From: Opitutia bacterium
GTDB lineage: Bacteria; Verrucomicrobiota; Verrucomicrobiia; Opitutales; Opitutaceae
DNA: 64,000 nt
Assembly (NCBI GenBank): GCA_947474365.1
Contig: CANJIU010000010.1
Location: 1-64,000, forward strand
Direction of reading: 5' to 3'
Shown here one piece after another: positions 8,823-54,704 of this stretch. The translations under genes and the position numbers were made by a program. Position 1 is the first letter of the stretch. The number at the start of each line of letters is the position of its first letter. A model generated the notes under the pieces. The model was not told the DNA's origin. It saw only the letters and a program-made list of their open reading frames with translations, and did no database searches.

Positions 8823-11039
8823 TCAGGGCGCCGACGCCGCACCCTCCGGGCGGCCGAACGCCGCGTCGACGGACCGCTGCAGGTGCTGGTAGCGTTGCTG
8901 GACTCCGTCGGGCACGCCCCAGATGAGGGCGCCCTGGTAGTGCAGCGAAACCGCCAGCGTGAGGGCAAGGGCCCAGGCCGTCGCGACGGCCAGCACGGTG
9001 CCCAGCGCGACGCGCGCGATCCGCGGCAGGCCCAGCAGGGCGGGGGCGCCCAACGCCGCGCCGCAGACCAGCGGGGCGCAAAAATCGGCGGTGTAACGCT
9101 GGGCGATGACGACGGCGGTGAACATCACCGCGGCCATTGGAATCACGGCGAGCCCTACGAGAAGGATCTGGCGGCGCGATTCCGGCCGGCGCGCGGCCAG
9201 GGCCGGGCCGACGGTCGCGAGCAGGAACAGTCCGGTCATGCCGAAGGGCAGGGCCAGCGTGCTCTCGGCGTAGTCCATCCTTGCCGAGGGAAATTCCCGC
9301 CCGGGTTTTGAGGTCGCGAGGAAGAGCCACGGAAACCGCGGCTCGATCCGGAAATTGGGCGAGAGGAGATAGGTGTGGATTGTGAAGGGAACGTTCGAGA
9401 GGTGAAACTGCCTCCCGTCGATGTGCGCGAGACGCCGGGCGTCGTACTGCACGTTCAATCGCACCGGCCAGCCGTTGAACGTGCCAAATTTCAGATAGCT
9501 GAGGCCGTTGAACGAAAGGGCGCCGGCCACTGTGAGCGCACCGATTGCCAGGTGCCGGGCCGCCGCCCGGCGTGCCGCGCGCGCCCCCCAGGCGAGGAAC
9601 GCCCCGATGCATCCGAGGAGCGTCAGGCAGAACAGGCCGCCCGGAGGCCGGGCATGCACCGCCAGCACTCCGCAGACGAGCGCGCCGATCCACCAGCGTG
9701 ACTCCGGCTGGAAAAAGTGGCGCCACGCGCACCAGCACCCCCAGAGGGCGAAGGCGGCGCCGCAGAGGATCGCCTCGTGATAGACATAGGCGCGGGAACC
9801 CAGGAAAAACAGCGTGCTGCCGAGCCCGAGGTTGAGTGTGAACAGCACCACCAGCCACGTCGGGCGGCGCGGGAGCGGTGGCGGCCGGCGCCGGAGTGCG
9901 TCGAGCAGGAGCAGGTAGGCCGCCACGAGGCACGCGGCATGGTAGGTCACGAGCGCGAACCGCGTGGATTCGCCGAAGCCCACGCCGAATATTACGCCGG
10001 GCAGTCGCAGCAGCGCCGGCGTGATTCCGAAATATCCGTAGTGCCGCCCGTTGTAGTTGAACGCCTCGTTGCCGATGGCTTCGAGCGGGACGTCGAGCCG
10101 GCCGTCGAGCAGGCTCATCGCCTGATAGTCGTAGAAATCGCCGAAGTTGTCGCGAAAGCGCAGCTGCCAGGATCCAGCGCTGACCAGCCCGGTGAACGCC
10201 GTCCCGCACACCAGCGCCGTCAACACGAACGCGCGGTGTGCCACCAGCGCGCCTCCCGCGATCGCCAGGCCTTGACGCACCTCCCGGAGTCCGATTCCGG
10301 CCGCGCGCCGCCAGAACCAGGTGACGAGAAATCCCGCGACCAGCACGCACCCAACCTGGCCGCGCGCATAGGTCAGCCAGCCGGCGAAACGCTCCGATCG
10401 CGTGAGGAGCTCGCGGACATTGCCCTCCCTGGTCCAGCCCTGGCGGTCGGTGATTCGGCCGCTGAATTCCCGACCGCACGCCGAACCGCCCAGTGGGTTG
10501 CGCCCAAACCAGGCGTGCGTCGGCCGCCGGAGATTCGCCCCCATCGGCTGGTCGATCAGGATCTGCCCGTTGAACACGACCCTCAGCCGCTCCTTCGGCG
10601 GGCTCGGATTGGCGTGAACCCGTGGCAGACTCGGCAGCGCCAGCTCAAGGGTCTGCGGAACGCCCGGGGAAAACGGGACCGGCCTGGAGACCGGACCGCC
10701 GCGGCCCCATTGATCATAGCCGAAGACGAGCGTGTGCTCGTCGAGATAGCGGACGTAGAGAAACGCCCCGTCTCCCGGCTGACCGGTGACAATGATCGGT
10801 TCGCTGGCGCCGGAGTGCGGGCGGTCGAAGGTCAGCAAAAGGAATTGGTCGGCCGGCAGCGGGGGGATGTGGTTCCAGAATACGCCGACGGTCAGGACCG
10901 CCACCGCCAACACGCCGGCGATCCAGGCGGGCACTCGTAATCCCGCAAGCCCTACCGCTCCCTTCGTGCCATGCCTCGCGCCCGGGCCGGACGGCGGGCC
11001 GACGGTGTCAGCCGGGGGGAGATCGGGAGGTTGCTTCAA
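8823..11039 (-). CDS. Large multi-pass membrane protein, glycosyltransferase-like
   Basis: About 738 residues if translation begins at the TTG at 11039. The open frame extends to 11321, but that part has no coding character and there is no ATG near the first hydrophobic helix, so the start is uncertain. One N-terminal membrane helix (AGVLAVAVLTVGVFW) precedes a soluble beta-rich domain of about 200 residues. About nine further helices follow, with a loop NFGDFYDYQAMSLLDGRLDV and FNYNGRHYGYFGITPALLR. Proteins with this plan are often annotated as GT39/PMT-like, with an acidic first loop. I see no decisive catalytic motif. The gene is divergent from the TonB receptor. Confidence 0.6.
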   Translation of the reverse strand: MKQPPDLPPADTVGPPSGPGARHGTKGAVGLAGLRVPAWIAGVLAVAVLTVGVFWNHIPPLPADQFLLLTFDRPHSGASEPIIVTGQPGDGAFLYVRYLDEHTLVFGYDQWGRGGPVSRPVPFSPGVPQTLELALPSLPRVHANPSPPKERLRVVFNGQILIDQPMGANLRRPTHAWFGRNPLGGSACGREFSGRITDRQGWTREGNVRELLTRSERFAGWLTYARGQVGCVLVAGFLVTWFWRRAAGIGLREVRQGLAIAGGALVAHRAFVLTALVCGTAFTGLVSAGSWQLRFRDNFGDFYDYQAMSLLDGRLDVPLEAIGNEAFNYNGRHYGYFGITPALLRLPGVIFGVGFGESTRFALVTYHAACLVAAYLLLLDALRRRPPPLPRRPTWLVVLFTLNLGLGSTLFFLGSRAYVYHEAILCGAAFALWGCWCAWRHFFQPESRWWIGALVCGVLAVHARPPGGLFCLTLLGCIGAFLAWGARAARRAAARHLAIGALTVAGALSFNGLSYLKFGTFNGWPVRLNVQYDARRLAHIDGRQFHLSNVPFTIHTYLLSPNFRIEPRFPWLFLATSKPGREFPSARMDYAESTLALPFGMTGLFLLATVGPALAARRPESRRQILLVGLAVIPMAAVMFTAVVIAQRYTADFCAPLVCGAALGAPALLGLPRIARVALGTVLAVATAWALALTLAVSLHYQGALIWGVPDGVQQRYQHLQRSVDAAFGRPEGAASAP

Positions 11040-11311
11040 GGCGTGTTTCGTGCGGGGGCGACGACGAAACGCGCCCGGGCCGCGACAATCCGGAGGAATT
11101 GCCCGATAAGCAATCCGAGACGAACGCCCGGCACGAATGTGCGCCGGCGCAACGATCGGACTCGAGGAAGCCGTCCGTGGCGACGCCGGGCAGGCGTGGC
11201 GACGTGACGAAACGCCGCGCCGCGTGCGTACCTGGTGCGCTGCGGGACAGAATACCGTTGGCATTTTTCCGGGTCGTGGCCTGCTACGGGCCACACCCCC
11301 TCCTTCGCCCC

Positions 11312-14300
11312 ATGATTGCATCGCTTCGACGGCTGACCGCGGCCTGGTTGTTCCTCTCCCTCGGTGTCGCGTTCGCCGCCACCGGCACGATCACCGGTCG
11401 CGTGCAGAACGTCGTCACCGGCCAATACCTCAACAAGGCCCGCGTCACGCTGCGCGGCGGCGACCAGGTCGTGTTCACCGACAATTTCGGCACGTACCAG
11501 CTCGTCGGCGTTCCCGCCGGGTCCGTGACCGTCGAATATTTCTACACCGACCTCGATCCGGTCGTCGTCAGCTTCACCGTGCCGGACGGCGGCACGATCG
11601 AGCGCAACGTCGATCTCACGAGCGCCCAGCGGTATGGCCGCGACGCGGCGGCGGTGAAGCTGGACGCCTTCGTCGTCGCCACCGACAAGGAGACCGATGC
11701 GCAGGCCATCGCGACGAACGAGCAGCGCTTCGCCCCGAACCTGAAGAACGTCCTCTCGACCGATGCGCTCGGCGACGTGCTGGGCGGCAGCGTGGGGGAG
11801 TTCCTGAAATTCATGCCCGGCCTCACGGCCGATTTCGACAATGCCGACATCGCGGGCGTCTCCGTGCGCGGCCTCGGCGGCGCGATGACCTCGATCACCG
11901 CCGACGGCGCGCCCGCCACCAACATCTGGACCGGCGCCACGCGCACCGTCGATGTGCGCTCGATGGCGCTCAACGACATCTCCCGCATCGAACTCTCGAA
12001 GGTCCCCACGCCGGCCAACCCCGCCGACTCGCTCGGCGGCTCCGTGAATCTCGTCAGCAAGAGCGCGTTCGAACGCAGCGGCCGGCAGCTGCGGTGGGGA
12101 GTCAACGTCGTCGGCAATCACGAGGAACTCTCCCTCAGCCGCACGCCGCACTCTCAGCAGGACCGGCTGGAGCACACCATCATCCCCGGCGCCAACTTCG
12201 ACTTCACGTGGCCGGTGACGCGCGACTTCGGTCTCGTGATCGCCGGCACCGCGACCGAAATCTACAACGAGCAGCATTTCGCGCGCACGACCTGGGCGAC
12301 GACGGGGGCGGGCGGTGCGCTCGCCACGGCCTCGCAGACGAATCCCTATCTCCAGTCCTTCCTGCTGCTCGACGGCCCGCGCAACATCTCCCGCAATTCC
12401 ATCAGTGCGAAGGCCGACTGGCGCGTGTGGCGGCACGGGGTCATCTCCCTCGGCCACGTCATGAACCGCTCGACCACGCGCATCGGCGCGCTCCAGCTCA
12501 CGTTCAACGCCGGCAACAACGGCACACCCACGCCCGCCAATGCCTCGCCCAACGCCACCTGGGATCCCACGTCTTTCCGCGGCGCCCTCGGCCGCGCCAC
12601 CATCACCAACAACGGCACGGCGCAGCTCGCCAACCAAAAGAGCGACAACACCAACCTCACGTTCCGCTACGACGACGGCCGCTGGCGGTTCGAGTCCGGC
12701 CTCAGCCGCTCCGAGTCGCGCTTCAAGCGCCGCTACTGGGACGGCGGCTTCTTCTATCAGGCCCTCGCCACCAACAGCCGCCCGATTCGCGTCAACTTCC
12801 TCGACATCGCGGGTGACAAGCCGGGCCGCATCGAGGTCTTCGACGCCACCAACCAGCCCTTCGACTGGCGCTCGCTCTCGAACTACCGTCCGACCACGAC
12901 CAACGTCGCCGACACCAACACCATCAACCTCGCGGGCAACGGCTACCTCAACATCCGCCGCCGCCTCGATTTCCTCCCGTTCCCCACCGCGCTCCAGATC
13001 GGCGGCGCCCAGCGCATGCAGCGCCTCGACACGAATCCGCAGACGATCAACTGGACCTTTGCCGGACCCGCCGGCGTCACGGCCGAGCCCTACCGCATGC
13101 AGGTCTATCGCAACATGGACTCGCACTACGGCTATTTTGGCATCGAGTGGATGGCGCCGGTCCGCGCCTTTCAGGCCTATCAGGCCAATCCGGCGCTCTA
13201 CACCAAGACCGAGGCGCAGGCGGTGGCCGAGGGCAACGCCCGGATCGACGGCTCGGAATTCGTCCGCGAGACCGTCCGCTCCGCCTATGCCCAGACCGAC
13301 GTCGCATTTTTTCACAACCGCCTGCGTTTCCTCGGCGGTGTGCGTTTTGAGGACACCCACGACGAGGGCCAGGGCGGTCTCAACAACGCCGACGCCGTCT
13401 GGCAGCGCAACCCCGACGGCTCCTACGTCCGCAACGCCGCCGGCGCGCGCGTGCGCAAACCCGAGGCCGGACTCGCCAACTCTTACGCGCAGTTCCTCCT
13501 CACGCGCAAGATGCGCGCCGTCTCCTCCGACCGTACCTACAGCGGCTACTACCCGAGCGCGCATCTGAATTTCAACGTCACCGAGAATTTCGTCGCCCGT
13601 GCCGCGTGGGCCCGGACCTACGGCCGCCCCAACTTCACCGACATCATCCCGCGCACCGTCGCCACCGCGGCCGACCTCGACGACGACGATCCCGATCCCG
13701 TCACCGGCCGGGGCACACTCACCATCCGCAACCCTGCGCTCAAGCCCTGGACCGCCGACAACTTCGATCTCTCCTTCGAGTACTACACGCCGCAGGGCGG
13801 CCTCGTCAGCGCCGGCATCTTCCGCAAGGACATCGCCAACTTCTTCGGCGACTCCGCCCGCATCGCCGACGCCGCGTTGCTCGGCGAGCTCGGCCTCGAC
13901 CCGCGCTATCTCGGCTGGAACGTTCTCACCAAGTTCAACGCCGGCGACGCCCGAATCACCGGCGCCGAGTTCAACGTCCGCCACTCACTGCGTGTGCTCG
14001 GCCGCCTCGGTGCGCCCTTCACCGTCTTTGCCAACGCCACGTTCCTCGACCTCGACGGCGGCCCGCGCGCGGCGTTCACGAGCTTCGTCCCCAAAAGCGG
14101 CAACTGGGGCGCCACGTTCGCCCACAAGCGCCTTTCCGTCACCGCCCGGTGGAACTACCGCGGCGAGGACCGGCGGGCGCCGCAGGCGGTGTTCGGCCTC
14201 GACGGTTACGAATACTACAAGGCCCGCATCACGCTCGACATGAACGCCACCTGGCAGCTGACGCGCCGGCTCTCCCTTGCCGCGAGCGTGAATAACGCCC

Positions 14301-14416
14301 TCAACGAGCCGCAGACGCTCCTCCGCTACGGCCCGCAAACCCCCGCGTACGCCCGCCAATACCAGGAAACCGAATACGGCATCCAGCTCTCCGCCGGTGT
14401 GCGGGGGACGTTTTGA
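11312..14416 (+). CDS. TonB-dependent outer-membrane receptor with carboxypeptidase-regulatory-like N-domain
   Basis: A 1034-residue receptor. A signal peptide (LFLSLGVAFAATG) is followed by a carboxypeptidase-regulatory-like beta domain (about residues 25-110, ITGRVQNVVTGQYLNKARV). A plug domain comes next (about 130-260, with VSVRGLGGAMTSITADGAP and LGGSVNLVSKSAF), then a 22-strand-type barrel ending in a terminal phenylalanine (AGVRGTF). The architecture is that of TonB receptors for complex glycans or their breakdown products in Verrucomicrobia and Caulobacter-like bacteria. The ATG at 11312 has a pyrimidine-rich leader (CTCCTTCGCCCC) instead of a Shine-Dalgarno motif. No partner SusD-type lipoprotein is nearby. 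The substrate cannot be told from sequence. Confidence 0.9.
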   Translation: MIASLRRLTAAWLFLSLGVAFAATGTITGRVQNVVTGQYLNKARVTLRGGDQVVFTDNFGTYQLVGVPAGSVTVEYFYTDLDPVVVSFTVPDGGTIERNVDLTSAQRYGRDAAAVKLDAFVVATDKETDAQAIATNEQRFAPNLKNVLSTDALGDVLGGSVGEFLKFMPGLTADFDNADIAGVSVRGLGGAMTSITADGAPATNIWTGATRTVDVRSMALNDISRIELSKVPTPANPADSLGGSVNLVSKSAFERSGRQLRWGVNVVGNHEELSLSRTPHSQQDRLEHTIIPGANFDFTWPVTRDFGLVIAGTATEIYNEQHFARTTWATTGAGGALATASQTNPYLQSFLLLDGPRNISRNSISAKADWRVWRHGVISLGHVMNRSTTRIGALQLTFNAGNNGTPTPANASPNATWDPTSFRGALGRATITNNGTAQLANQKSDNTNLTFRYDDGRWRFESGLSRSESRFKRRYWDGGFFYQALATNSRPIRVNFLDIAGDKPGRIEVFDATNQPFDWRSLSNYRPTTTNVADTNTINLAGNGYLNIRRRLDFLPFPTALQIGGAQRMQRLDTNPQTINWTFAGPAGVTAEPYRMQVYRNMDSHYGYFGIEWMAPVRAFQAYQANPALYTKTEAQAVAEGNARIDGSEFVRETVRSAYAQTDVAFFHNRLRFLGGVRFEDTHDEGQGGLNNADAVWQRNPDGSYVRNAAGARVRKPEAGLANSYAQFLLTRKMRAVSSDRTYSGYYPSAHLNFNVTENFVARAAWARTYGRPNFTDIIPRTVATAADLDDDDPDPVTGRGTLTIRNPALKPWTADNFDLSFEYYTPQGGLVSAGIFRKDIANFFGDSARIADAALLGELGLDPRYLGWNVLTKFNAGDARITGAEFNVRHSLRVLGRLGAPFTVFANATFLDLDGGPRAAFTSFVPKSGNWGATFAHKRLSVTARWNYRGEDRRAPQAVFGLDGYEYYKARITLDMNATWQLTRRLSLAASVNNALNEPQTLLRYGPQTPAYARQYQETEYGIQLSAGVRGTF

Positions 14417-14720
14417 GGTTGCCGTGTCGCTTTCGTGTACCGGCCGGCGGGGTGCATCTCCCGTCCGGTTTCTATCCGCACCGTAACCGATGCGGCTGTG
14501 GTATTTCATTTTTATAGCCGCGTGGGTTACGGCGCAGCGGGCGTGGCTAACCTGCCATTTCATGATTTCCGAAGTCGTCGCACACATGCACGATCTGGAT
14601 CGTTATTTGCACGGCTGTCGTTCCTCCGCCCCTTCCCATCGGATGGGCACTCGACGAATCAGCTTGTGCGCACGTGCGCGCGTGGCTCCCCTCGGTCGTT
14701 TGTTGTAATCAAGGAAATCC
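14417..14720. other. Intergenic region containing one copy of a dispersed repeat
   Basis: This 304-base gap between the receptor and mrr genes holds an inverted-repeat element (about 14441-14541), described separately. The rest (about 14545-14720) is relatively AT-rich and presumably carries the mrr promoter, but no clear -35/-10 pair was picked out. No coding sequence is supported. Confidence 0.5.
14441..14541 (-). repeat. Dispersed two-hairpin element, copy 1 (reverse orientation)
   Basis: Read on the minus strand, this segment matches the segment at 42498-42600. Both carry a GCGCCGTAACC block, a GCGGC/TAGCCGC pair around an AT-rich centre, CGGTTACGGTGCGG, then an AACCG, CGGGAGA and CCGCCGG tail. 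Each half can fold as a small hairpin with GTAACC or GGTTAC at its tip. The layout is like a REP/BIME-type element. No transposase is near. Confidence 0.7.
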
Positions 14721-15644
14721 ATGCCGATACCCGACTACCAAACCTGCATGCTTCCACTTTTGCGATTCGTAGCGGACGGTGATGAGCATACATTCAAAGA
14801 TGCAGTCGAAGCGCTGGCCACCGAATTTGAGCTCACGGAAGCGGAACGCGGTGAGTACCTGCCCAGCGGCCAGCAGCCGGTGATCGATAATCGCGTGGGC
14901 TGGGCCAGTACCTACATGAAGAAGGCGGGATTACTGTCGGCTCCACGACGTGGAATCATCAAGATTACCGAACGAGGTCGGGTGATTCTCGAAAAGCCAC
15001 CAGCCAGGCTCGACCTCGCCTATCTTGGAAAATTTCCCGAGTTCATTGCGTTCAAGAAGCTGCGCCATAAAAAGAATGGCGACGAATCGCCGTCAGAAGC
15101 ATTCGTGCCTTCTCGCGAAGAAGATAACACCCCGCACGAGGCGGTTGAAGCTGCAATTGATCGATTAAGGTCAGAACTTGCAGCGGAAATCCTCGCGAAG
15201 ATGAAGTCGTCATCGCCCGTCCTGTTTGAGGAGGTCGTCGTGGACCTCTTGGTGAAGATGGGCTACGGTGGCTCAAGGAAGGATGCCGGTCAGGCAATTG
15301 GACGTCGCGGAGATGAAGGTATCGACGGAATCATCAAAGAAGATCGGCTCGGTTTGGACATCATTTACATCCAGGCGAAGCGTTGGGAAGCGACGGTTGG
15401 CCGCCCCGAAATCCAAAAATTCGCGGGAGCTTTGGACGGTCAGCGTGCGAGGAAAGGTATTTTTATCACCACGTCTGACTTTTCGCGCGAGGCCCAAGAC
15501 TACGTGTCGCGGATCGAGAAAAAGATAATCCTTATCGATGGTGCAGAATTCGCACGCCTCATGATCGACTACGGCGTGGGCGTCACGTCAGTCGTCACCT
15601 ACGAGGTAAAAAGGCTGGATACTGATTACTTCGAGACCTCGTAG
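14721..15644 (+). CDS. mrr: Mrr-type modification-dependent restriction endonuclease
   Basis: A 307-residue protein close in length to E. coli Mrr (304). Residues 1-110 are the winged-helix Mrr N-domain (YLPSGQQPVIDNRVGWASTY is typical). Residues 165-290 are the nuclease domain with FEEVVVDLLVKMGYGG, Asp202 in DEGIDGII, and Gln218-x-Lys220 in IYIQAKRW. This matches the D...QxK variant of the PD-(D/E)xK fold. In this family the enzyme cuts DNA carrying foreign methylation and acts alone, and no methyltransferase adjoins. Codon use looks less GC-biased than in its neighbours, which fits horizontal acquisition. A hairpin terminator follows. The start is the ATG at 14721, preceded by AAGGAAATCC, a plausible ribosome site. 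Confidence 0.9.
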   Translation: MPIPDYQTCMLPLLRFVADGDEHTFKDAVEALATEFELTEAERGEYLPSGQQPVIDNRVGWASTYMKKAGLLSAPRRGIIKITERGRVILEKPPARLDLAYLGKFPEFIAFKKLRHKKNGDESPSEAFVPSREEDNTPHEAVEAAIDRLRSELAAEILAKMKSSSPVLFEEVVVDLLVKMGYGGSRKDAGQAIGRRGDEGIDGIIKEDRLGLDIIYIQAKRWEATVGRPEIQKFAGALDGQRARKGIFITTSDFSREAQDYVSRIEKKIILIDGAEFARLMIDYGVGVTSVVTYEVKRLDTDYFETS

Positions 15645-15693
15645 GAAAGGACCCAATGCCACTGGAGCCGTCCCATCGGCTTCCCACGGAATC

Positions 15694-15742
15694 AAAAAGA
15701 CCGCAGATGGAGAAATTTCCGGCTCTGCATCTGTGGTCTTTC
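15694..15742. terminator. Bidirectional-type terminator hairpin after mrr
   Basis: A 14-base stem (AAAGACCGCAGATG at 15696-15709 with CATCTGTGGTCTTT at 15728-15741, one G-U pair) encloses an 18-base loop. It is flanked by an A-tract on the left and a T-rich stretch on the right. It lies about 50 bases after the mrr stop codon. Confidence 0.78.
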
Positions 15743-15819
15743 TGGATCTATGGGAGCCCCGTGGTTTCCAAGCGTGATTCAGATCGCATCTCCACCCTCG
15801 TCCGCGTAGCTCTCCGCTC

Positions 15820-16806
15820 ATGAACATACCCACCGTCCGGGATGCCGTCCTGCTGCTCGCCCTCGCTTTCAGCGTCGCGTTGCCCGCCCAAACGGCGAAG
15901 CCGCCGTCGTTGACAAAGACCGACTTCGAACGCGCGATGAAGGACCTCTCCAATTGGGGGCGCTGGGGCGCCACCGATGAGCTCGGCGCGCTGAATCTCA
16001 TCACGCCGGAAAAGCGGCGCGAGGCGGCGAAGCTCGTGCGCGAAGGCGTGGCCGTGTCGCTGTCGCACGATGCCGAAAAGGAAAAGGCGGCCGACAACCC
16101 GCGTCCGTTCATCCACGAGATGCTGTCGACGTCCGCGACACCCGGCGCGCAGTCCCATGGCGACTCGTTCACGATCGCCCACCACGGACTCGCCCACACA
16201 CACCTCGATGCGCTCTGCCATTTTTTCTACGACGGAAAAATGTACAACGGCTTTGCCCGGGAGGAAGTCACCGCGAAGGGCGCGGCCAAGTTGTCCGTCT
16301 ACAACGTGCACAACGGGATTTTCACGAGGGGCATCCTGATGGACATTCCGCGGCTGAAGGGCGTGCCGTATCTGGAACCGGGCACCCCAATATATCCAGA
16401 GGACTTGGACGCTTGGGAAAAGCAGGCAGGGTTGCGCGTGCAGCCGGGCGACGTCGTGTTGATCCGGACAGGGCGTTGGGCACGTCGGTCGGAAAAGGGA
16501 CCGTGGTCCGGTGAGCTGGCGGGCCTGCACATGACGTCCGCGCGCTGGCTCAAGAGCCGCGACGTCGCCGTACTCGGCAGCGATGCCGCACAGGACGTGA
16601 TGCCGTCGGGAGTGGAGGGTGTGCGACAGCCCATCCACCTGCTGGTGCTCGTCGCGATGGGGATGCCGATTCTGGACAATAGCGATCTGGAGGAGCTGAG
16701 CAAAGCCGCCCAGCAGCGAAAACGGTGGGATTTTCTGATCACGACCTCGCCGCTCGCCGTGCCGGGCGCGACCGGGTCGGCGCTCAATCCGATTGCGCTT
16801 TTTTGA
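15820..16806 (+). CDS. Secreted cyclase / kynurenine-formamidase-like family protein
   Basis: A 328-residue member of the cyclase family (metal-dependent hydrolases related to bacterial kynurenine formamidase). A signal peptide covers about residues 1-25 (LLLALAFSVALPAQ), so it is exported, unlike classical formamidases. The metal-binding signature is at 122-134 (HGLAHTHLDALCH), a variant of HxGTHxDxPxH. Other family marks are the N-terminal WGRWGATDELGALNL, which is typical of the longer members, and DVVLIRTGRW. The chemistry is probably hydrolysis of an amide or lactone, with unknown substrate. It stands alone, downstream of the mrr terminator. Start at ATG 15820 with a CT-rich leader. Confidence 0.8.
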   Translation: MNIPTVRDAVLLLALAFSVALPAQTAKPPSLTKTDFERAMKDLSNWGRWGATDELGALNLITPEKRREAAKLVREGVAVSLSHDAEKEKAADNPRPFIHEMLSTSATPGAQSHGDSFTIAHHGLAHTHLDALCHFFYDGKMYNGFAREEVTAKGAAKLSVYNVHNGIFTRGILMDIPRLKGVPYLEPGTPIYPEDLDAWEKQAGLRVQPGDVVLIRTGRWARRSEKGPWSGELAGLHMTSARWLKSRDVAVLGSDAAQDVMPSGVEGVRQPIHLLVLVAMGMPILDNSDLEELSKAAQQRKRWDFLITTSPLAVPGATGSALNPIALF

Positions 16807-43502: not shown

Positions 43503-45122
43503 TCAGCTGGCGGCGAGGCGCAGTTCGGCGCGAAATCCCTGGGGCACGCGGTTGGCGAATCGCACTTCACCACCGCAGGCCGCGATACTGGTGCGGACGA
43601 TGGCGAGGCCGAGCCCGACCCCGCCGCTTTCACGGGTTCGTGCCAGTTCCGGGCGGAAAAACGGCTCGCCAAGCCGGTCGAGATCCGCGGCCGGGACCCC
43701 AGGCCCGTTGTCTTCGACGACAATGGCGATCCCCTTTTCGTCGGGTGCAGCGGTGACGGTGATCGGTCCGGTGTCGCCCGCATAGCGGAGGGCGTTCCGC
43801 ACGAGATTGCCGAGGGCGCGGGAAAGGAGATCCGGGTCCGCCTTGGCGGTGAGGGCCGGGGGGCAGTTGAGCGTGACACGTTGGCCGGCATCTTCGCGGG
43901 CCAGGACCTCTCGGGCGAGCGGCTCCAGTTCAATGATTCCGATGGCCACGTCGCGCGGCTGCATGCCGGCCTTGGTGAACGCGAGCAGTTCGTTCACCAA
44001 CGAACTCATCTGCTGCACTTCATCGCGGACGTCCGTCACGGTTTCCTGCAGTTCCTTGGGGGCCTGCTCGGCGAGGATGCCAGTGGCCATTTGCAGGCGG
44101 GCCAGTGGCGAGCAGAGTTCGTGCGCGACATCGCCGAGAAAACGCTTCTGCCCGGTCATGTGCGCGTCGAGACGCGATGCCATCCGGTTTACCGAATCCC
44201 CCAGTTTGCCAAGTTCGTCGCGCCGGTGTGTGGTGACCCGGGTTTCAAATCGACCCTCGGCGATTTGTTCGGTGGCGGTGGTGAGCTGGCCGACCGAACG
44301 GGTGATGCTACGTACGAGCGGCAGCCAGAACAGCACCGAGAGGGCGAGCACGCCAGTGCCGGCGAGGACCCACGATTGGAGATTGAGCAGATGGAGGAGC
44401 GCCCACAGCGAACCGACGCGCACGATGAGCCGGGCGGGGACGAAGCGCGCTCGTTCACCCGACACAAAGGGCACCCGTAATCCGACCCAATAGGCCGCCG
44501 GTGTCCCGGCGCGAATCACAAAACGGCCTGCCAGCACCTCGGGGGGAGGCAGCGGCATCGCGGCATTGAAGGGTGGCGGCTCTCGTTGGCCCAGCTCCGG
44601 AGGCGGCGGGCGTCCCTTTTCGGCGGATTCGGGCGGGCCGAACTCGGTCGAAAGTGGTTCGCGCCGTCTTGGACCCTCGAATTCGCCGGCTTCGTGGCCC
44701 GGTCGAAATCCCTCGCCGCGAAACCCTTCGCCCCGCGGACCAAATCCCCGGCGCTCGCCGTAACCGCCGGGAGGTCCCCCGCGTGAACCGCGAAATTCCA
44801 GCCGTGCGCGCACGGCCTCGGGCAGTTCCACGTTGCGGCCCGCCATCCGGCCTTCGGGATTGAAGAGGAAAAACTCTGCGTTGTAGGCGGCGCCGAAGCG
44901 TTTCAGCACCTCATTGCGGGCCTCGCCCGTGGCCGCCGCAGCCTCACCTGCGATGACGTTGGCGAGATTCTGCATCCGTTCGCCGCTCGGGCCCGCCACC
45001 AGCGCGTCCCAGCGCAAACCGCCGTTCACGACAAAGAACCCGATGCCGACCCCCGCGAGCAGCAGGAGATTCAACATCAGCCACAGCGAAACTTTCAGGG
45101 ACAGCGGGTAGGAGACCTTCAT
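43503..45122 (-). CDS. CpxA-like sensor histidine kinase with Gly/Pro/Arg-rich periplasmic domain
   Basis: A 539-residue membrane kinase starting at ATG 45122 (KVSYPLSLKVSLWLMLNLLLLAGVG, first helix). The periplasmic domain (about 35-260) contains an extreme low-complexity part at 110-190 rich in Gly, Arg, Phe, Pro and Glu (GEGFRGEGFRPGHEAGEFEG). Then come a second helix, HAMP (about 280-330), HisKA with phospho-acceptor His334 in DVAHELCSPLARLQ, and HATPase with NALRYAG, DNGPGVP and GGVGLGLAI. The H-box HELxSPLARLQ is the CpxA type. No regulator gene adjoins on the same strand; the most likely partner is the CpxR-like regulator at 52164, about 7 kb away. The CpxA family senses envelope stress. 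Confidence 0.88.
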   Translation of the reverse strand: MKVSYPLSLKVSLWLMLNLLLLAGVGIGFFVVNGGLRWDALVAGPSGERMQNLANVIAGEAAAATGEARNEVLKRFGAAYNAEFFLFNPEGRMAGRNVELPEAVRARLEFRGSRGGPPGGYGERRGFGPRGEGFRGEGFRPGHEAGEFEGPRRREPLSTEFGPPESAEKGRPPPPELGQREPPPFNAAMPLPPPEVLAGRFVIRAGTPAAYWVGLRVPFVSGERARFVPARLIVRVGSLWALLHLLNLQSWVLAGTGVLALSVLFWLPLVRSITRSVGQLTTATEQIAEGRFETRVTTHRRDELGKLGDSVNRMASRLDAHMTGQKRFLGDVAHELCSPLARLQMATGILAEQAPKELQETVTDVRDEVQQMSSLVNELLAFTKAGMQPRDVAIGIIELEPLAREVLAREDAGQRVTLNCPPALTAKADPDLLSRALGNLVRNALRYAGDTGPITVTAAPDEKGIAIVVEDNGPGVPAADLDRLGEPFFRPELARTRESGGVGLGLAIVRTSIAACGGEVRFANRVPQGFRAELRLAAS

Positions 45123-45273
45123 CGACAATGGGGCGAGACGCAGGGAAACTGTACGAGTTAATGGGAAGAAGTCGCAACGTTTACCGAGGCTTAACAATTC
45201 TGCGCCCATCCCCACACATGGGCTTAACCGCCGGGCGGTTTACTTCGGTCCACACCTCCGCTTCCCACCTCCC

Positions 45274-47595
45274 ATGAATTCCCACTTCCGTTCCCTGCGC
45301 CTCACTTCGGCCGGTCTCGTCGCCGCGGGCCTGACACTGGCCTCTGCGTCGGCCGCCGATCCGCAGCTTGAGTCCTGGCAGACGGCCAACACGCGGCGCT
45401 ATGCCCGCATCTACGAGACCGATGCCACCCGGCTTGCCGGTGCCGCCGTCACCACTTGGACCCGTGGCGCGACTTCACAGACGACCCCGAGCTATGCCGG
45501 CGTAATCCAGGTTTCATCGTCGGCCAACTGGGTCTATCTCCGCTCCACCGGGCTCGGCACCCATGTGATGGGTCCGTGGTACGGCAATGCTGCGCACACC
45601 CAGGCCTTTCCGAGTTACCCGGCGAACATGGGCGTGCTCTACCGGATTCCGCGCACGCCCACGATTCCGTCCACCAAGACCCTCACCGGCCTTGCCGCGA
45701 TCGGTTACTTCGTCGACGGCGTGGCCGCCTTCGACAATCGCGATGCGTTTTCCTACGCGACCGCGAACGGCACGGACGCCTCCCCGGTCAACGGACTGCG
45801 CGGCGACGGAGTCTGGAACCGGGAGGCCTATCACAACGAGGGCATGACGTTCGATCCGGCCTTTGCGCATCAGGCGATGACAAACCACCACTACCACGCC
45901 AACGCACCGGCCGTCCGCTTTCAGCTCGGGGACCACGTCGATTTCAACACCACCACCAAGATCTACACGGAGAGCACCGGACCGGTGACGGCGCACTCGC
46001 CCATTGTCGCCTGGCTGGCGGACGGCCTGCCCGTGTATGGCCCTTACGGCTACGCGTCACCGCTGAATCCCGCGAGCGGCCTGCGGCGCATGACGTCCGG
46101 TTATGTCAAGCGCGACGGCACCAACGGCACGACCAACCTCGCGGCAACCGGTCGCACCGCGCTCCCCGCCTGGGCGGCGCGGGCGCAGAATCGTAGCGTC
46201 ACGCTGCCCGCCAACGTCTACGGCCCGGCGGTCAGCGCGGCCTACGTCCTCGGGCACTTCATCGAAGACTATGACTACCTCGGCGACCTCGGAAAAATTC
46301 AGGGCACGGATTTCGACCTCAACGAGTACAATGTCCGGTTCTGCGTGACCCCTGAGTTTCCGAACGGCACGTACGCGTATTTTCTCACGATCGAGGCCGA
46401 CGGCACGCCGAAGTTTCCCAACATGGTCGGCCGCTGGTTTTTTGGCGCCGCCACCGGCGGCAACGTCAACGCGATCAACGAGCCTGTTGTCGAATTTGCC
46501 CGGGCGAGCCAGGCGTCCCCGATTGCCGTGACCGCGACCAATTCCGGCGGCACGGTGGCGATCGTCTGGTCCTCGGTCGAGGGTGCGACCTACAAAATTG
46601 AAACCTCCCCCGACGCGACGACCTGGTCGGCCCTCGCCAGTGCCGCCGCAGTCACGAGCGACGGCGGCGACAAGACCAGTTTCTCCACCACGACGATCGC
46701 GGCGAACTACCGCGTGACCCTCACCGCACTGGCTGCCTACGACACGCGTGGCTCCGGCGGCCTCACTGGAATCGGCAATTCCGCGACTGCGATCGCCGCC
46801 GTCGGCTCCGCCGGCACGGCGCGGCTCGTCAATATCGCCACGCGCGCTGCGCTGGGCGGAGCGGCCGGCACGCCGATTCCGGGTTTTGTCCTCGGCGGCG
46901 CGGGCACGAAACAGATGCTCGTGCGCGCGGTGGGCCCGACGCTGGGCGGCTTCGGCGTGGGCGGAGCGTTGGCCGATCCCCGGCTCAGTCTCGTGAGCGG
47001 CTCGACGACCGTGGGCAGCAACGACAATTGGCTTGCGACCGACTCCGCGACGATGGCCGGCGCCGGGGCGTTTGCGCTCGCGGCTGCGAGCAAGGATGCC
47101 GCGCTCGTCGCGACTCTTGCGCCCGGCGCGTACACCGCTCCCGTGACGGCGACGGACAACGGCAGTGGGGTCGCGCTCCTGGAGGTCTACGATGCTTCGA
47201 CGGCCGGCACGATGTCGGTCGTCAACGCCTCCACCCGCGCCTTCGTCGGCACGGGCGACTCGGTCCTTATCCCTGGTTTTACGATCAGTGGCACGGGTAC
47301 GCTGCGGCTGCTGATCCGTGCAGTGGGCCCGACGCTTGGCACCTTTGGTGTCGGTGGGGTGCTCGCGGACCCGACGATCACGCTCTACAGCGGCGCGACG
47401 GCGCTGGCGACCAACGACAACTGGGCCGCCGCTGATGCCGCGACGATGGCCGCGGTCGGCGCGTTTGCGTTGCCCGCGGGCAGCAGGGACGCCGCGATTG
47501 TCACGACCCTTGCCGCCGGTTCCTACACCGCGGTGGTCAGTGGCGTCGGCAACACCACCGGCACCGCGCTCGTCGAACTCTACGTCGTCCCATGA
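45274..47595 (+). CDS. YHYH-domain secreted protein with paired C-terminal modules
   Basis: A 773-residue exported protein (signal peptide about 1-28, LVAAGLTLASASAA). Residues 30-400 form a YHYH-family domain, with the eponymous motif seen as NHHYH at 204-208 and further marks GLPVYGPYGYA, VKRDGTNGTTNLAA and IEDYDYLGDLGKIQGTDFDLNEYN. A beta domain (about 420-490) follows, with ATYKIETSPDATTWS as in FN3/discoidin-like segments. Two copies of the roughly 130-residue module end the protein (about 516-640 and 645-773). The first Tyr of YHYH is His here. Metal binding is plausible from the His cluster but unproven. The gene overlaps the sulfatase gene by 4 bases (ATGA), so translation is coupled. 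The paralogue is at 49694. Confidence 0.83.
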   Translation: MNSHFRSLRLTSAGLVAAGLTLASASAADPQLESWQTANTRRYARIYETDATRLAGAAVTTWTRGATSQTTPSYAGVIQVSSSANWVYLRSTGLGTHVMGPWYGNAAHTQAFPSYPANMGVLYRIPRTPTIPSTKTLTGLAAIGYFVDGVAAFDNRDAFSYATANGTDASPVNGLRGDGVWNREAYHNEGMTFDPAFAHQAMTNHHYHANAPAVRFQLGDHVDFNTTTKIYTESTGPVTAHSPIVAWLADGLPVYGPYGYASPLNPASGLRRMTSGYVKRDGTNGTTNLAATGRTALPAWAARAQNRSVTLPANVYGPAVSAAYVLGHFIEDYDYLGDLGKIQGTDFDLNEYNVRFCVTPEFPNGTYAYFLTIEADGTPKFPNMVGRWFFGAATGGNVNAINEPVVEFARASQASPIAVTATNSGGTVAIVWSSVEGATYKIETSPDATTWSALASAAAVTSDGGDKTSFSTTTIAANYRVTLTALAAYDTRGSGGLTGIGNSATAIAAVGSAGTARLVNIATRAALGGAAGTPIPGFVLGGAGTKQMLVRAVGPTLGGFGVGGALADPRLSLVSGSTTVGSNDNWLATDSATMAGAGAFALAAASKDAALVATLAPGAYTAPVTATDNGSGVALLEVYDASTAGTMSVVNASTRAFVGTGDSVLIPGFTISGTGTLRLLIRAVGPTLGTFGVGGVLADPTITLYSGATALATNDNWAAADAATMAAVGAFALPAGSRDAAIVTTLAAGSYTAVVSGVGNTTGTALVELYVVP

Positions 47596-52163: not shown

Positions 52164-52895
52164 TTACTCAGGCCCCACCATCATATAACCCGCCGATCGC
52201 ACCGTCCGGATATACTTGGGCTCCTTGGCGTCGTCCCCCAGTTTCTTTCGCAGCGAAGAGATATGCACATCAATCGAACGATCGAAGACGTCGTAATTTC
52301 GGTCGCGGCACTCGTCGAGCAGGGCCTCACGCGTCTTTACGCGACCCTTGGCCTTGGCGAGGCTGGCCAGCAGATCGAATTCGACCGGGGTCAGCACAAG
52401 CGGCGTGGTGTCCATCACGGCGGAACGGGCGTCGAGATTCACGCGCAGCGGCCCGATGACAACTTCGGTGGGCGGGGCCCCGGCGGATTTTTCGGCGGCG
52501 GCGGTGGCCGCGCTGCGGCGCAGGACGGCGCGGAGACGCGCGAGCAGTTCGCGCGTGGAAAATGTCTTCGGCAGGTAGTCATCGGCGCCGACCTCAAGTC
52601 CGACGATGCGATCCGTTTCGTCGCCGCGGGCGGTGAGCATCAGGACGGGCACCGTGCTCTTGGCTCGGATGCGTTTCAAGACCTCGAAGCCGTCGAGGCC
52701 CGGCAGCATCACATCGAGGAGGATGGCATGCCACGGTTCTTCGACGGTCGTGGCGCGCTCCACGCCCTCCGGTCCGGTGTGGACGGCGGTCACGTCAAAA
52801 CCCAGCGGCTGAAGATACGTGGTGACGAGCCGGCAAAGTTTCCGGTCATCGTCGATCATCAGGAGTCGGGTGCGGCCTTCGGGGCGGTCAGACAT
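52164..52895 (-). CDS. CpxR/OmpR-type response regulator with an altered receiver motif
   Basis: A 243-residue regulator. In the receiver domain (about 10-125), acidic residues are Asp15-17, the phospho-acceptor is Asp61 in ILLDVMLPG, Thr88 is in MLTARG, and the conserved Lys110 is in YLPKTF. The residue after Lys is Thr111, where almost all OmpR-type receivers have a cis-proline (KPF). The winged-helix domain (about 145-240) has LTPVEFDLLASLAKAKGRV, SIDVHISSLRKKLGDD and YIRTVRSAGYMM. Sequence style (DDDRKL at the start, DECRDRNYDVFDRSIDVHI) is CpxR-like. It pairs best with the CpxA-like kinase at 43503. It is divergent from the MbnP-MbnH gene; the two ATGs are 3 bases apart, so their promoters must overlap coding sequence. 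Confidence 0.9.
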   Translation of the reverse strand: MSDRPEGRTRLLMIDDDRKLCRLVTTYLQPLGFDVTAVHTGPEGVERATTVEEPWHAILLDVMLPGLDGFEVLKRIRAKSTVPVLMLTARGDETDRIVGLEVGADDYLPKTFSTRELLARLRAVLRRSAATAAAEKSAGAPPTEVVIGPLRVNLDARSAVMDTTPLVLTPVEFDLLASLAKAKGRVKTREALLDECRDRNYDVFDRSIDVHISSLRKKLGDDAKEPKYIRTVRSAGYMMVGPE

Positions 52896-52898
52896 GGG

Positions 52899-54704
52899 AT
52901 GGTTGTGGAAAATTTAATTCGCGGGTGCAACAGCCGGAGTGAGGTCGGGCGTCGTTCCGTTTTGCTTGGTGTCGGATTGTTCGGCCTGACGGCGGTCGCA
53001 TCGGCTGCCGATCTCACGATCGCAGTCGAGCCGCGCTGGCGGCAGGAGAAACTGGCGGTGCCGTCCACGGTCAGGGTCAACGATGCTGGGCAGTCGCTGC
53101 GCGTCACGCGGCTGTCCGCGTTGTTTTCGAGCGTCGCCCTGTTGCGCGCCGACGGCAGCCGGGTCCAGTTGGAGGGACAGTATGGTTTTGTCGACGCGGA
53201 GAGCGGGCGGCGGGAATTCACAGTGCGGGGTGCGCCGGACGGCGAGTTCGTGGGACTCGAATTCGACGTGGGCGTTCCCCCGGATGCGAATCATGGCGAC
53301 CCCGGGCGGTGGGGCGTCGGGCATCCGCTCAATCCGCTCGTCAACGGCCTGCATTGGAGCTGGCAGGGCGGCTATGTGTTTTTCGCCGTCGAGGGCCGGT
53401 GGAGCGATGCCCAGGGCGCCGCGGGCGAACGCGGGTTTTCCTATCATCTGGCGACCGATGCGCGGAAAATCCCGGTGCGGTTCCGGTCTGATTTCCGGAT
53501 CCAGGGGGATACGACCATCGCGTTCGCGCTGGATTTTGCCCGTATTCTCGCGGCGCAACGGCTCGCGGTCGACGATGCCAGCGAGTCGACGCACTCGGCG
53601 GGGGGCGACAAGTTGGCGGAGCGATTGGCGACCGCGGTGGAGCGGGCGTGGTTCTGGCTGGGCGCCGCACCGACGACGCGTGGCCGCGAGCGCCAGCGAG
53701 TGGAGGTCGATGGAAATCCGCTGGCTGGCGCTCGCAGCCACGGCGGGACGCCTCACGCGTTTGTCGTTCCCGCCGGATTTCCGCAGCCTTCGCTGCCGGT
53801 CGACAATCCGCTCACCGTGGAGGGAATTGCCCTGGGTGAAGTCTTGTTTTCCGATCCGCGGCTGGCCGGTAATGGGGCGCAGTCGTGCGCGAGCTGTCAT
53901 GCCCCGAGCCGGGCGTTCAGCGATTCCGTCGCGCTGAGCCGGGGAGCGGAGGGTGACCTTGGAAAACGCAATGCGATGCCGCTGTTCAATCTCGCCTGGT
54001 CGCCGAACTATGCCTGGGACGGCAGCCAGCCGAAGATTCGCGACCAGGCGCTGGCCGCCTGGACCAATCCGATCGAGATGCGCGCCGATCCCGCGGTCGT
54101 CGTGGCGGCGCTGGGACGGGATGCCGCGCTCACGGCGCGGTTCGCGGCGGTATTCGGCAGCGCGGAAGTCACGCCGGCGCGGGTGACGTTGGCGCTGGAG
54201 CAGTACCTGCTGACGCTGGTTTCGGCTGATTCCAAATTTGACCGTGCGCTGCGCGGCGAGGTGCAGTTCGCCGATGACGAGAAACGCGGCTTCGAGTTGT
54301 TCGCGATGGAATTTGATCCGGTCCGCGACCGTCGAGGAGCCGATTGTTTTCACTGCCACGGCGGCGCGCTTTTTTCGGACTATTCGCTGAAAAACAACGG
54401 GCTCGAACTCGTCGCGGTGGATCAGGGCCGCGAGCAGGTCACGGGTGCGGCGACGGATCGCGCCAAGTTCAAGACGCCCTCGTTGCGCAACGTCGCCGTC
54501 ACGGCCCCCTACATGCACGATGGACGGTTCGCCACGCTCGAGGACGTGGTCGCGCACTACGATCACGGCGTCAAGCGGACGTCCACGCTCGATCCCAATC
54601 TCGCGAAACACCCCGATGCCGGGCTGCAGTTGTCCCGCGACGATCAACGGGCGCTGGTGGCGTTCCTGCGGACGTTGACGGACGTACGGTACGAGGGGCG
54701 GTGA
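52899..54704 (+). CDS. MbnP-like domain fused to a di-heme MbnH/MauG-type peroxidase
   Basis: A 601-residue exported protein. The signal peptide is VGRRSVLLGVGLFGLTAVASA; the ATG at 52899 is the only plausible ATG. Residues about 38-250 match the MbnP family (RVNDAGQSLRVTRLSALFSSVALL, HPLNPLVNGLHWSWQGGYVFF), with candidate modified tryptophans 153 and 155. Residues about 285-600 are a cytochrome-c-peroxidase/MauG-type domain with LTVEGIALGEVLFSDPRL, heme motifs CASCH (330-334) and CFHCH (483-487), and FKTPSLRNVAVTAPYMHDGRF. In described systems MbnH is a separate di-heme enzyme that oxidises a Trp of MbnP to kynurenine. Here both sit in one chain. Both heme sites are intact. The start is uncertain because of the 3-base divergent gap. 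Confidence 0.82.
   Translation: MVVENLIRGCNSRSEVGRRSVLLGVGLFGLTAVASAADLTIAVEPRWRQEKLAVPSTVRVNDAGQSLRVTRLSALFSSVALLRADGSRVQLEGQYGFVDAESGRREFTVRGAPDGEFVGLEFDVGVPPDANHGDPGRWGVGHPLNPLVNGLHWSWQGGYVFFAVEGRWSDAQGAAGERGFSYHLATDARKIPVRFRSDFRIQGDTTIAFALDFARILAAQRLAVDDASESTHSAGGDKLAERLATAVERAWFWLGAAPTTRGRERQRVEVDGNPLAGARSHGGTPHAFVVPAGFPQPSLPVDNPLTVEGIALGEVLFSDPRLAGNGAQSCASCHAPSRAFSDSVALSRGAEGDLGKRNAMPLFNLAWSPNYAWDGSQPKIRDQALAAWTNPIEMRADPAVVVAALGRDAALTARFAAVFGSAEVTPARVTLALEQYLLTLVSADSKFDRALRGEVQFADDEKRGFELFAMEFDPVRDRRGADCFHCHGGALFSDYSLKNNGLELVAVDQGREQVTGAATDRAKFKTPSLRNVAVTAPYMHDGRFATLEDVVAHYDHGVKRTSTLDPNLAKHPDAGLQLSRDDQRALVAFLRTLTDVRYEGR

Follow-up and report, generated by a model that had tools for sequence, protein, structure and literature searches.

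Copper proteins of the kynurenine type are known mainly from copper uptake in methanotrophs. The pair formed by MbnP and MbnH (PDB 7l6g and 6e1c) is known from Methylosinus trichosporium and from other bacteria. The classical MbnP copper site consists of His and Met. In this separate system, the first Trp of the WxW motif is the one reported as oxidized in a 2021 PNAS paper on MbnP. The MbnP and MbnH genes occur as a pair far beyond methanobactin producers (PMC3621798). In MopE and CorA, Cu(I) is bound by two His residues together with a kynurenine close by, and in these methanotroph systems, MopE/SACCP and CorA/CorB, a di-heme peroxidase comes from a co-transcribed gene (PMC3423442; PMC3912023). 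The latter paper also describes MauG as acting on two Trp residues of a separate protein (PMC3912023).

The window analyzed here is the whole stretch of 64,000 nucleotides. One of its genes, at 52899..54704 on the plus strand, had been read in the original prediction as a single-chain fusion of MbnP with a di-heme oxidase, and profile searches bear this out. The frame contains no internal stops and encodes a product of 601 amino acids (P0001). The protein has a hydrophobic, signal-like N-terminus, followed by the MbnP domain and then the di-heme domain. Residues about 1-36 (52899..53006, plus strand), read from the sequence, are a probable export signal. PF20243 (MbnP) matches residues 38-223 (53010..53567, plus strand) with 101.4 bits and an E-value of 7e-29, well past its curated cut-off of 27, so the original prediction withstands its own check for an MbnP match within residues 38-250. 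PF03150 (CCP_MauG) matches residues 308-455 with 161.8 bits (E 2e-47; cut-off 25.6). The MbnH/MauG-type di-heme domain as a whole spans residues 300-596 (53796..54686, plus strand), where the NCBIfam MbnH model (TIGR04039) scores 215.3 bits. This is under its cut-off of 362.85, but TIGR04039 is nevertheless the top NCBIfam model for the fusion. The NCBIfam MbnP WxW model (TIGR04052) also scores under its cut-off, with 42.8 bits against 140 at residues 101-185.

Among solved structures, MbnH 6e1c comes closest to the heme half by sequence (E 2.5e-43). The MbnP structure 7l6g is a weak match, with an E-value of 0.013 for the full query and 0.0028 for the N-terminal part alone. An AlphaFold2 model of the whole chain, built from 45 sequences, has a pLDDT of 87.8 and a pTM of 0.87 and has no bearing on the Trp-heme distance. 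Its top Foldseek match was MbnH 6e1c (2.2e-22), and 7l6g was absent among the 50 matches listed. When the N-terminal domain was modeled alone (pLDDT 95.5), six chains of 7l6g were the only PDB folds with an E-value of 1e-3 or less (best 2.5e-9), at a TM score of 0.52-0.59 by query length.

The fusion is divergent from a gene for an OmpR-type response regulator (52164..52895, minus strand), identified from the open reading frame list and by profile. Only 3 bases lie between the fusion ATG at 52899 and the regulator start at 52895 (window positions 52893-52901), so the start codon of the fusion is unsure. Probably one of the two divergent starts is placed too early, or the promoters lie inside the genes. 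A sensor histidine kinase found by profile (43509..45209, minus strand) may pair with this regulator.

The fused chain is a variant of a known pair, and each of its halves has been described before. Like the MbnP/MbnH pair, it has both domains, the WxW motif and a di-heme enzyme with the MauG-type Tyr. Unlike the pair, which is two proteins, it is one chain with no Met in its MbnP half, both of its NCBIfam scores fall under the cut-offs, and its neighbors are YHYH or galactose-oxidase genes. MauG, which works on pre-methylamine dehydrogenase, is likewise a di-heme enzyme that oxidizes protein Trp, and the equivalent of its Tyr294 is present here. However, the substrate of MauG is a separate protein, whereas the fusion carries its MbnP domain in the same chain. 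The literature surveyed, which was not searched for the fusion specifically, makes no mention of a single-chain form or of links to copper radical oxidases or YHYH proteins. The fused layout may well appear in public listings of domain architectures.

The distribution of the fusion was determined in several collections. PF20243 was present in 22 of 387 genomes sampled from the window's phylum, as 27 rows, and frame extraction gave 24 intact two-domain fusion genes in 20 of these 22 genomes. The own genome of the window had a single PF20243 gene by profile search, the fusion itself. The remaining rows belong to G108 (two rows, one frame-broken gene) and G121 (one row). In G121 (L137, 3731-7546), the N- and C-terminal pieces lie ~2.5 kb apart with transposase-type frames between them; the fusion was apparently split by a pair of DDE transposase-type frames that run in opposite directions. 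No separate MbnP/MbnH pair was found among the 27 rows. In Verrucomicrobiota, MbnP usually occurs in this fused form.

A collection of species genomes was scanned with the fusion alignment, and the best 80 of 582 related stretches were kept. Of these 80, 25 were one-frame stretches, 51 had adjacent separate genes, and four had the heme gene only within the stretch examined. The one-frame stretches, one of which (L055) is cut by a contig end, carry Verrucomicrobiota titles in 24 of 25 cases, and L048 is titled only as a bacterium. The 51 adjacent pairs mostly, but not all, carry Bacteroidota titles. One of the four stretches with the heme gene only, L051 (Opitutus), carries an integrase-core frame in place of the MbnP half. 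A draw of 345 genomes from the phylum of G387 (L070, Cryomorpha, Bacteroidota) had 88 with PF20243, and none of these 88 held a frame of fusion length, the longest PF20243 frame being 517 amino acids. A second phylum draw was rejected as an independent sample since it contained nearly the same genomes as the Bacteroidota draw. No one-frame fusion was found on plasmids among the matches listed (20 of 330 records); the one match covered by more than 80% in one place is made up of two pieces that stretch over 2.6 kb and across four annotated features. Within the collections searched, the fusion is confined to Verrucomicrobiota.

The window protein and 44 relatives, comprising 24 genes from the phylum sample and 21 from the species collection, were aligned as 45 distinct fusions. 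Left out were L040 and L057 (the same loci as L030 and L017), L055 (contig start cut), L058 (N gap), L051 (no MbnP half), L023/L032 (the broken G108) and L028 (the interrupted G121). The frame of L058 had looked like a still larger fusion, but it crosses a run of N into a YHYH gene and was rejected as such. Because 45 distinct fusions share the layout, the window's included, the fusion is not due to chance or a frame error.

We favor the reading that this gene encodes a copper protein that is exported, modifies itself and acts for a neighboring partner, with a rough probability of 0.6. A single exported protein would combine an MbnP-type copper-binding domain with its own tethered MbnH-type di-heme oxidase. 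After heme loading outside the cytoplasm, peroxide would activate the heme domain, electrons would be withdrawn, and Trp153, the first Trp of the WxW motif, would be oxidized to kynurenine in the protein's own chain or in a sister chain. Kynurenine 153, together with His183 and some of His142, His152 and His232, would then complete a copper(I) site. The copper might be stored, or it might be passed to the product of the neighboring gene, which would be a YHYH protein in the window and a galactose-oxidase-like copper enzyme in other members. That the fused heme domain oxidizes Trp153, be it in its own chain or in another, is the part that we consider likely, while the supply of copper from the fusion to its neighbor is a tentative suggestion.

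The nearest partner gene upstream of the fusion encodes a YHYH-domain protein (PF14240; 49694..51991, plus strand), and a second YHYH-domain protein (PF14240) is encoded at 45112..47592 on the plus strand, both found by profile. A sulfatase gene is flanked by these two YHYH genes. The survey of neighborhoods covered 48 distinct loci. Of these, 26 came from the phylum sample, with the window and both broken genes among them, and 22 came from the species scan, L058 included. The stretches examined extended at most about 8 kb to each side of the fusion and often less. L040 and L128 denote one locus, as do L017 and L057, and each was counted once. A YHYH gene was near the fusion in 27/48 loci, a giant with a galactose oxidase domain adjoined it in 11/48, and neither gene was present in 10/48. 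For the phylum sample alone, these numbers were 17, 7 and 2 of 26. In one set of 48 loci, response regulators were 6 kb or less away in 16. Among 54 loci that lack an intact fusion, YHYH was detected only at L066, which does not carry a Bacteroidota title, by a phmmer search that may miss distant ones; the separate Bacteroidota pairs thus differ from the fusion in this respect as well as in being two chains. The neighbors of the fusion are non-random. YHYH occurred in 48 of the 387 phylum-sample genomes and in all 22 with MbnP. The hypergeometric probability of this co-occurrence is 7e-23 by genome and 2e-14 by genus (16 of 197 genera), values for which related genomes are not independent. Our literature search found neither a function for the YHYH family nor a paper tying it to copper.

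The 11 giants (L037, L041, L043, L053, L057, L119, L127, L129, L130, L131 and L133) contain a galactose-oxidase-like copper domain along with Ig, PKD, PA14 or lectin domains. The L057 giant (8946-16079; 2377 amino acids) is the only complete one, and its N-terminal part matches solved galactose oxidase at 3e-92. All 11 have the motifs His-Asp/Glu-Met/Leu-Phe-Cys and Arg-x-Tyr-His-Ser, which in galactose oxidase contain the cross-linked Cys and the Tyr and His that bind copper. A CCP_MauG-type match occurs further along in three of the four giants scanned (L057, L127 and L133). At L041 and L043, the start of the giant overlaps the stop of the fusion.

Such neighbors could also be the substrates of the enzyme. 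The heme domain would then mature the neighboring YHYH protein or copper radical oxidase, by Tyr or Trp oxidation for example, and the MbnP domain would be a docking, copper-carrying module. MauG, as the titles of PDB complexes also indicate, acts on a separate protein, and the neighbor counts, the stop/start overlaps at the two loci and the occurrence of YHYH in every MbnP genome all fit this explanation. However, a mere docking module would not need Trp153, which is found in all 45 fusions. Galactose oxidase also needs no enzyme other than itself to form its Tyr-Cys link, given copper and oxygen, and the 10 loci with neither gene leave the enzyme without such a substrate nearby. We therefore consider maturation of a partner unlikely compared to self-modification of the fused chain.

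The heme half was examined for catalytic hallmarks. The two CxxCH motifs are at the positions claimed originally: CASCH at residues 330-334 (53886..53900, plus strand) and CFHCH at residues 483-487 (54345..54359, plus strand). C330, C333 and H334 of the first heme c motif and C483, C486 and H487 of the second are present in 45/45 fusions, as are W373, Q383, E393 and Tyr554 (54558..54560, plus strand), and the alignment has 73 invariant columns. The catalytic Trp, Gln and Glu of MauG are residues 93, 103 and 113; W373, Q383 and E393 were equated with them through an alignment to 1iqc and equal spacing rather than by direct alignment to MauG. Tyr554 aligns with MauG Tyr294, as numbered by counting from the printed MauG chain start (261), and Tyr294 of MauG is an axial ligand of the second heme. 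Bacterial cytochrome c peroxidases proper have a Met ligand and a distal His. In the alignment, Ala350 of the window protein is opposite a His of the Nitrosomonas peroxidase that serves as this distal ligand, and His is found at position 350 in just 2/45 fusions.

If the heme half were an ordinary cytochrome c peroxidase that clears peroxide near copper, MbnP would bind copper without Trp oxidation. PF03150 and several peroxidase structures do match well. On the other side, the Tyr at 554 is invariant, His at 350 is rare, MbnH 6e1c is the closest relative by both sequence and fold, and Trp153 is retained in every fusion. Since Tyr554 is invariant and position 350 is seldom His, the marks of the heme domain, as judged by alignment, are those of MauG/MbnH and not those of peroxidases. 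We rejected the ordinary peroxidase as improbable. Another PF03150 di-heme protein is encoded elsewhere in the own genome (L002, contig C61), with EF-hand matches in its C-terminal part.

Next to the heme half, the self-modifying protein would need a target Trp. The window protein reads HWSW at residues 152-155, and the WxW motif W153-S-W155 (53355..53363, plus strand) contains the proposed kynurenine site, Trp153. The original prediction had suggested that the fusion could help define whether Trp153 or Trp155 is the target, and the answer is divided. The fusions favor Trp153 (45/45 against 43/45), but the difference is small, arising from a Pro at position 155 in L027 and L039. The 58 separate MbnP domains show no preference, with Trp153 kept in 51/58 and Trp155 in 49/58. 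Because these residues have been lost in seven and nine of the 58, respectively, it appears that the MbnP fold can outlive the chemistry. In L065, L072, L076, L078, L105, L109 and L111, Phe or Met (as aligned) replaces the first Trp of the motif; four of the seven retain Trp155, and an MbnH gene still adjoins all of them.

The oxidized residue could thus be Trp155 or another Trp. Trp155 is present in nearly all fusions, the separate MbnP domains keep both residues about equally, and the N-terminal part of the window protein has further Trp residues at 47, 138, 168, 251 and 253. However, the two Pro155 members lack Trp155, each of the further positions is Trp in no more than 19/45 fusions, and the reported target in the separate system is the first Trp. 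This makes a target other than Trp153 quite improbable, slightly more so than the ordinary peroxidase. Since it is present in 45/45 fusions and corresponds to the reported target in the separate system, Trp153 is the best candidate for the target, but it is not proven.

A copper site could be built from several His residues of the MbnP half. These candidate ligands, whose role would be to hold copper, are His142 (53322..53324), His152 (53352..53354), His183 (53445..53447) and His232 (53592..53594), all on the plus strand. His142 is found in 43/45 fusions, with Asp in the other two, and His152 is found in 44/45, with Gln in the other. His183 is present in 45/45 fusions and 57/58 separate MbnP domains, and His232 in 45/45 and 32/58. 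At position 152, only 19/58 separate MbnP domains have His. Two residues ahead of Trp153, 7l6g has Met, as do 35/58 separate MbnP domains, compared to Leu in 41/45 fusions. Residues 2-359 of the window protein include no Met, so its MbnP half cannot supply the His and Met of the classical site, and no Met is conserved in the N-terminal domain of the fusions, where any position is Met in at most 12/45. Because the MbnP half lacks Met, the predicted site is His-based, and copper, if bound, is likely held by His and kynurenine. A His and kynurenine site together with a di-heme peroxidase partner would resemble MopE and CorA. In those systems, the partner enzyme is separate, whereas here it is fused, and the motif is Trp-x-His (Kyn62/His64 and Kyn130/His132) compared to His152-Trp153-x-Trp155 in the fusion (PMC3423442; PMC3912023). 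The Trp-x-His motif is absent at the WxW of the window protein, where Trp153-Ser-Trp155 is found.

The origin of the fusion was examined with trees of each domain, from which L040, L055, L057 and L058 were left out. In the heme-domain tree with all 127 rows, the fusions form one clade with L051 and L066 (SH-aLRT 92), and the same clade was recovered without two long branches, L067_sep_8942 and L074_sep_4 (SH-aLRT 95.9). The MbnP tree places the fusions with L066 in a single clade with a support of 80 (not starred). In both trees, most of the nearest relatives without a fusion are separate Bacteroidota pairs. Forcing the fusions together without L066 (with L051 in the heme tree) was not rejected, with p-AU values of 0.845 and 0.873, and the forced trees had a higher likelihood than the unforced ones. 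Both domain trees are compatible with a single fusion event. In L066, whose contig bears the title Sumerlaeota, separate genes for YHYH, MbnP and MbnH lie side by side, and MbnH begins with a signal-like stretch of its own; this layout may be the pre-fusion state. In 14 of the 51 adjacent separate pairs, the frames agree and one stop codon lies between the genes, which is no more than expected by chance. Two side observations came from the trees. Seven loci (L060, L070, L071, L091, L100, L104 and L112) have one MbnP gene followed by two different tandem MbnH-type genes that fall on two separate branches of the heme tree. Also, L091 is titled Phycisphaerales, but its genome was assigned to the phylum of a Bacteroidota genome in the draw described above, and its genes nest among Bacteroidota in the heme tree; this genome is probably misnamed.

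The two domains are joined by a linker at residues 259-295 (53673..53783, plus strand), which has a pLDDT below 50 at residues 265-274 and no second signal-like stretch. Across the fusions, the linker is 21-44 residues long, and its peak hydropathy is at most 1.78 in 45/45. Ahead of the separate MbnH domain, the peak is at least 1.99 in 74/76. Judged by hydropathy, the fused linker has lost the signal-like stretch that precedes separate MbnH. The starts of three of the 45 fusions are not clearly hydrophobic, with peaks of 0.47, 1.24 and 1.33 for the start codons as chosen. A decaying gene or a lost-stop artifact, which the frame changes of G108 and the transposase-like insertions of G121 might suggest, is extremely improbable and is taken as refuted for the fusion family, given the 24 intact genes that 20 genomes of the phylum sample carry, a further 21 from the species collection, the invariant columns of the alignment and the loss of the internal signal-like stretch, and an assembly artifact is ruled out by the 44 relatives.

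A self-modifying fusion would join an enzyme to its own substrate, which fixes both their pairing and their stoichiometry. The conversion of Trp to kynurenine would also be easier to study, with one polypeptide, one construct and point mutants at 153 and 155, and the two natural Pro155 members offer a handle on the roles of both Trp residues. The neighborhood ties kynurenine-type copper proteins to a copper radical oxidase and to the uncharacterized YHYH family. A more speculative and, for now, doubtful extension is that Verrucomicrobiota possess a one-chain, self-activating copper-loading factor for specific exported enzymes, with a Met-free site of His and kynurenine. If this is true, its targets would be the giant galactose-oxidase-type copper radical oxidases, which have di-heme-type domains of their own, as well as the YHYH proteins, and YHYH would be an unrecognized family of copper (or MbnH-matured) proteins.
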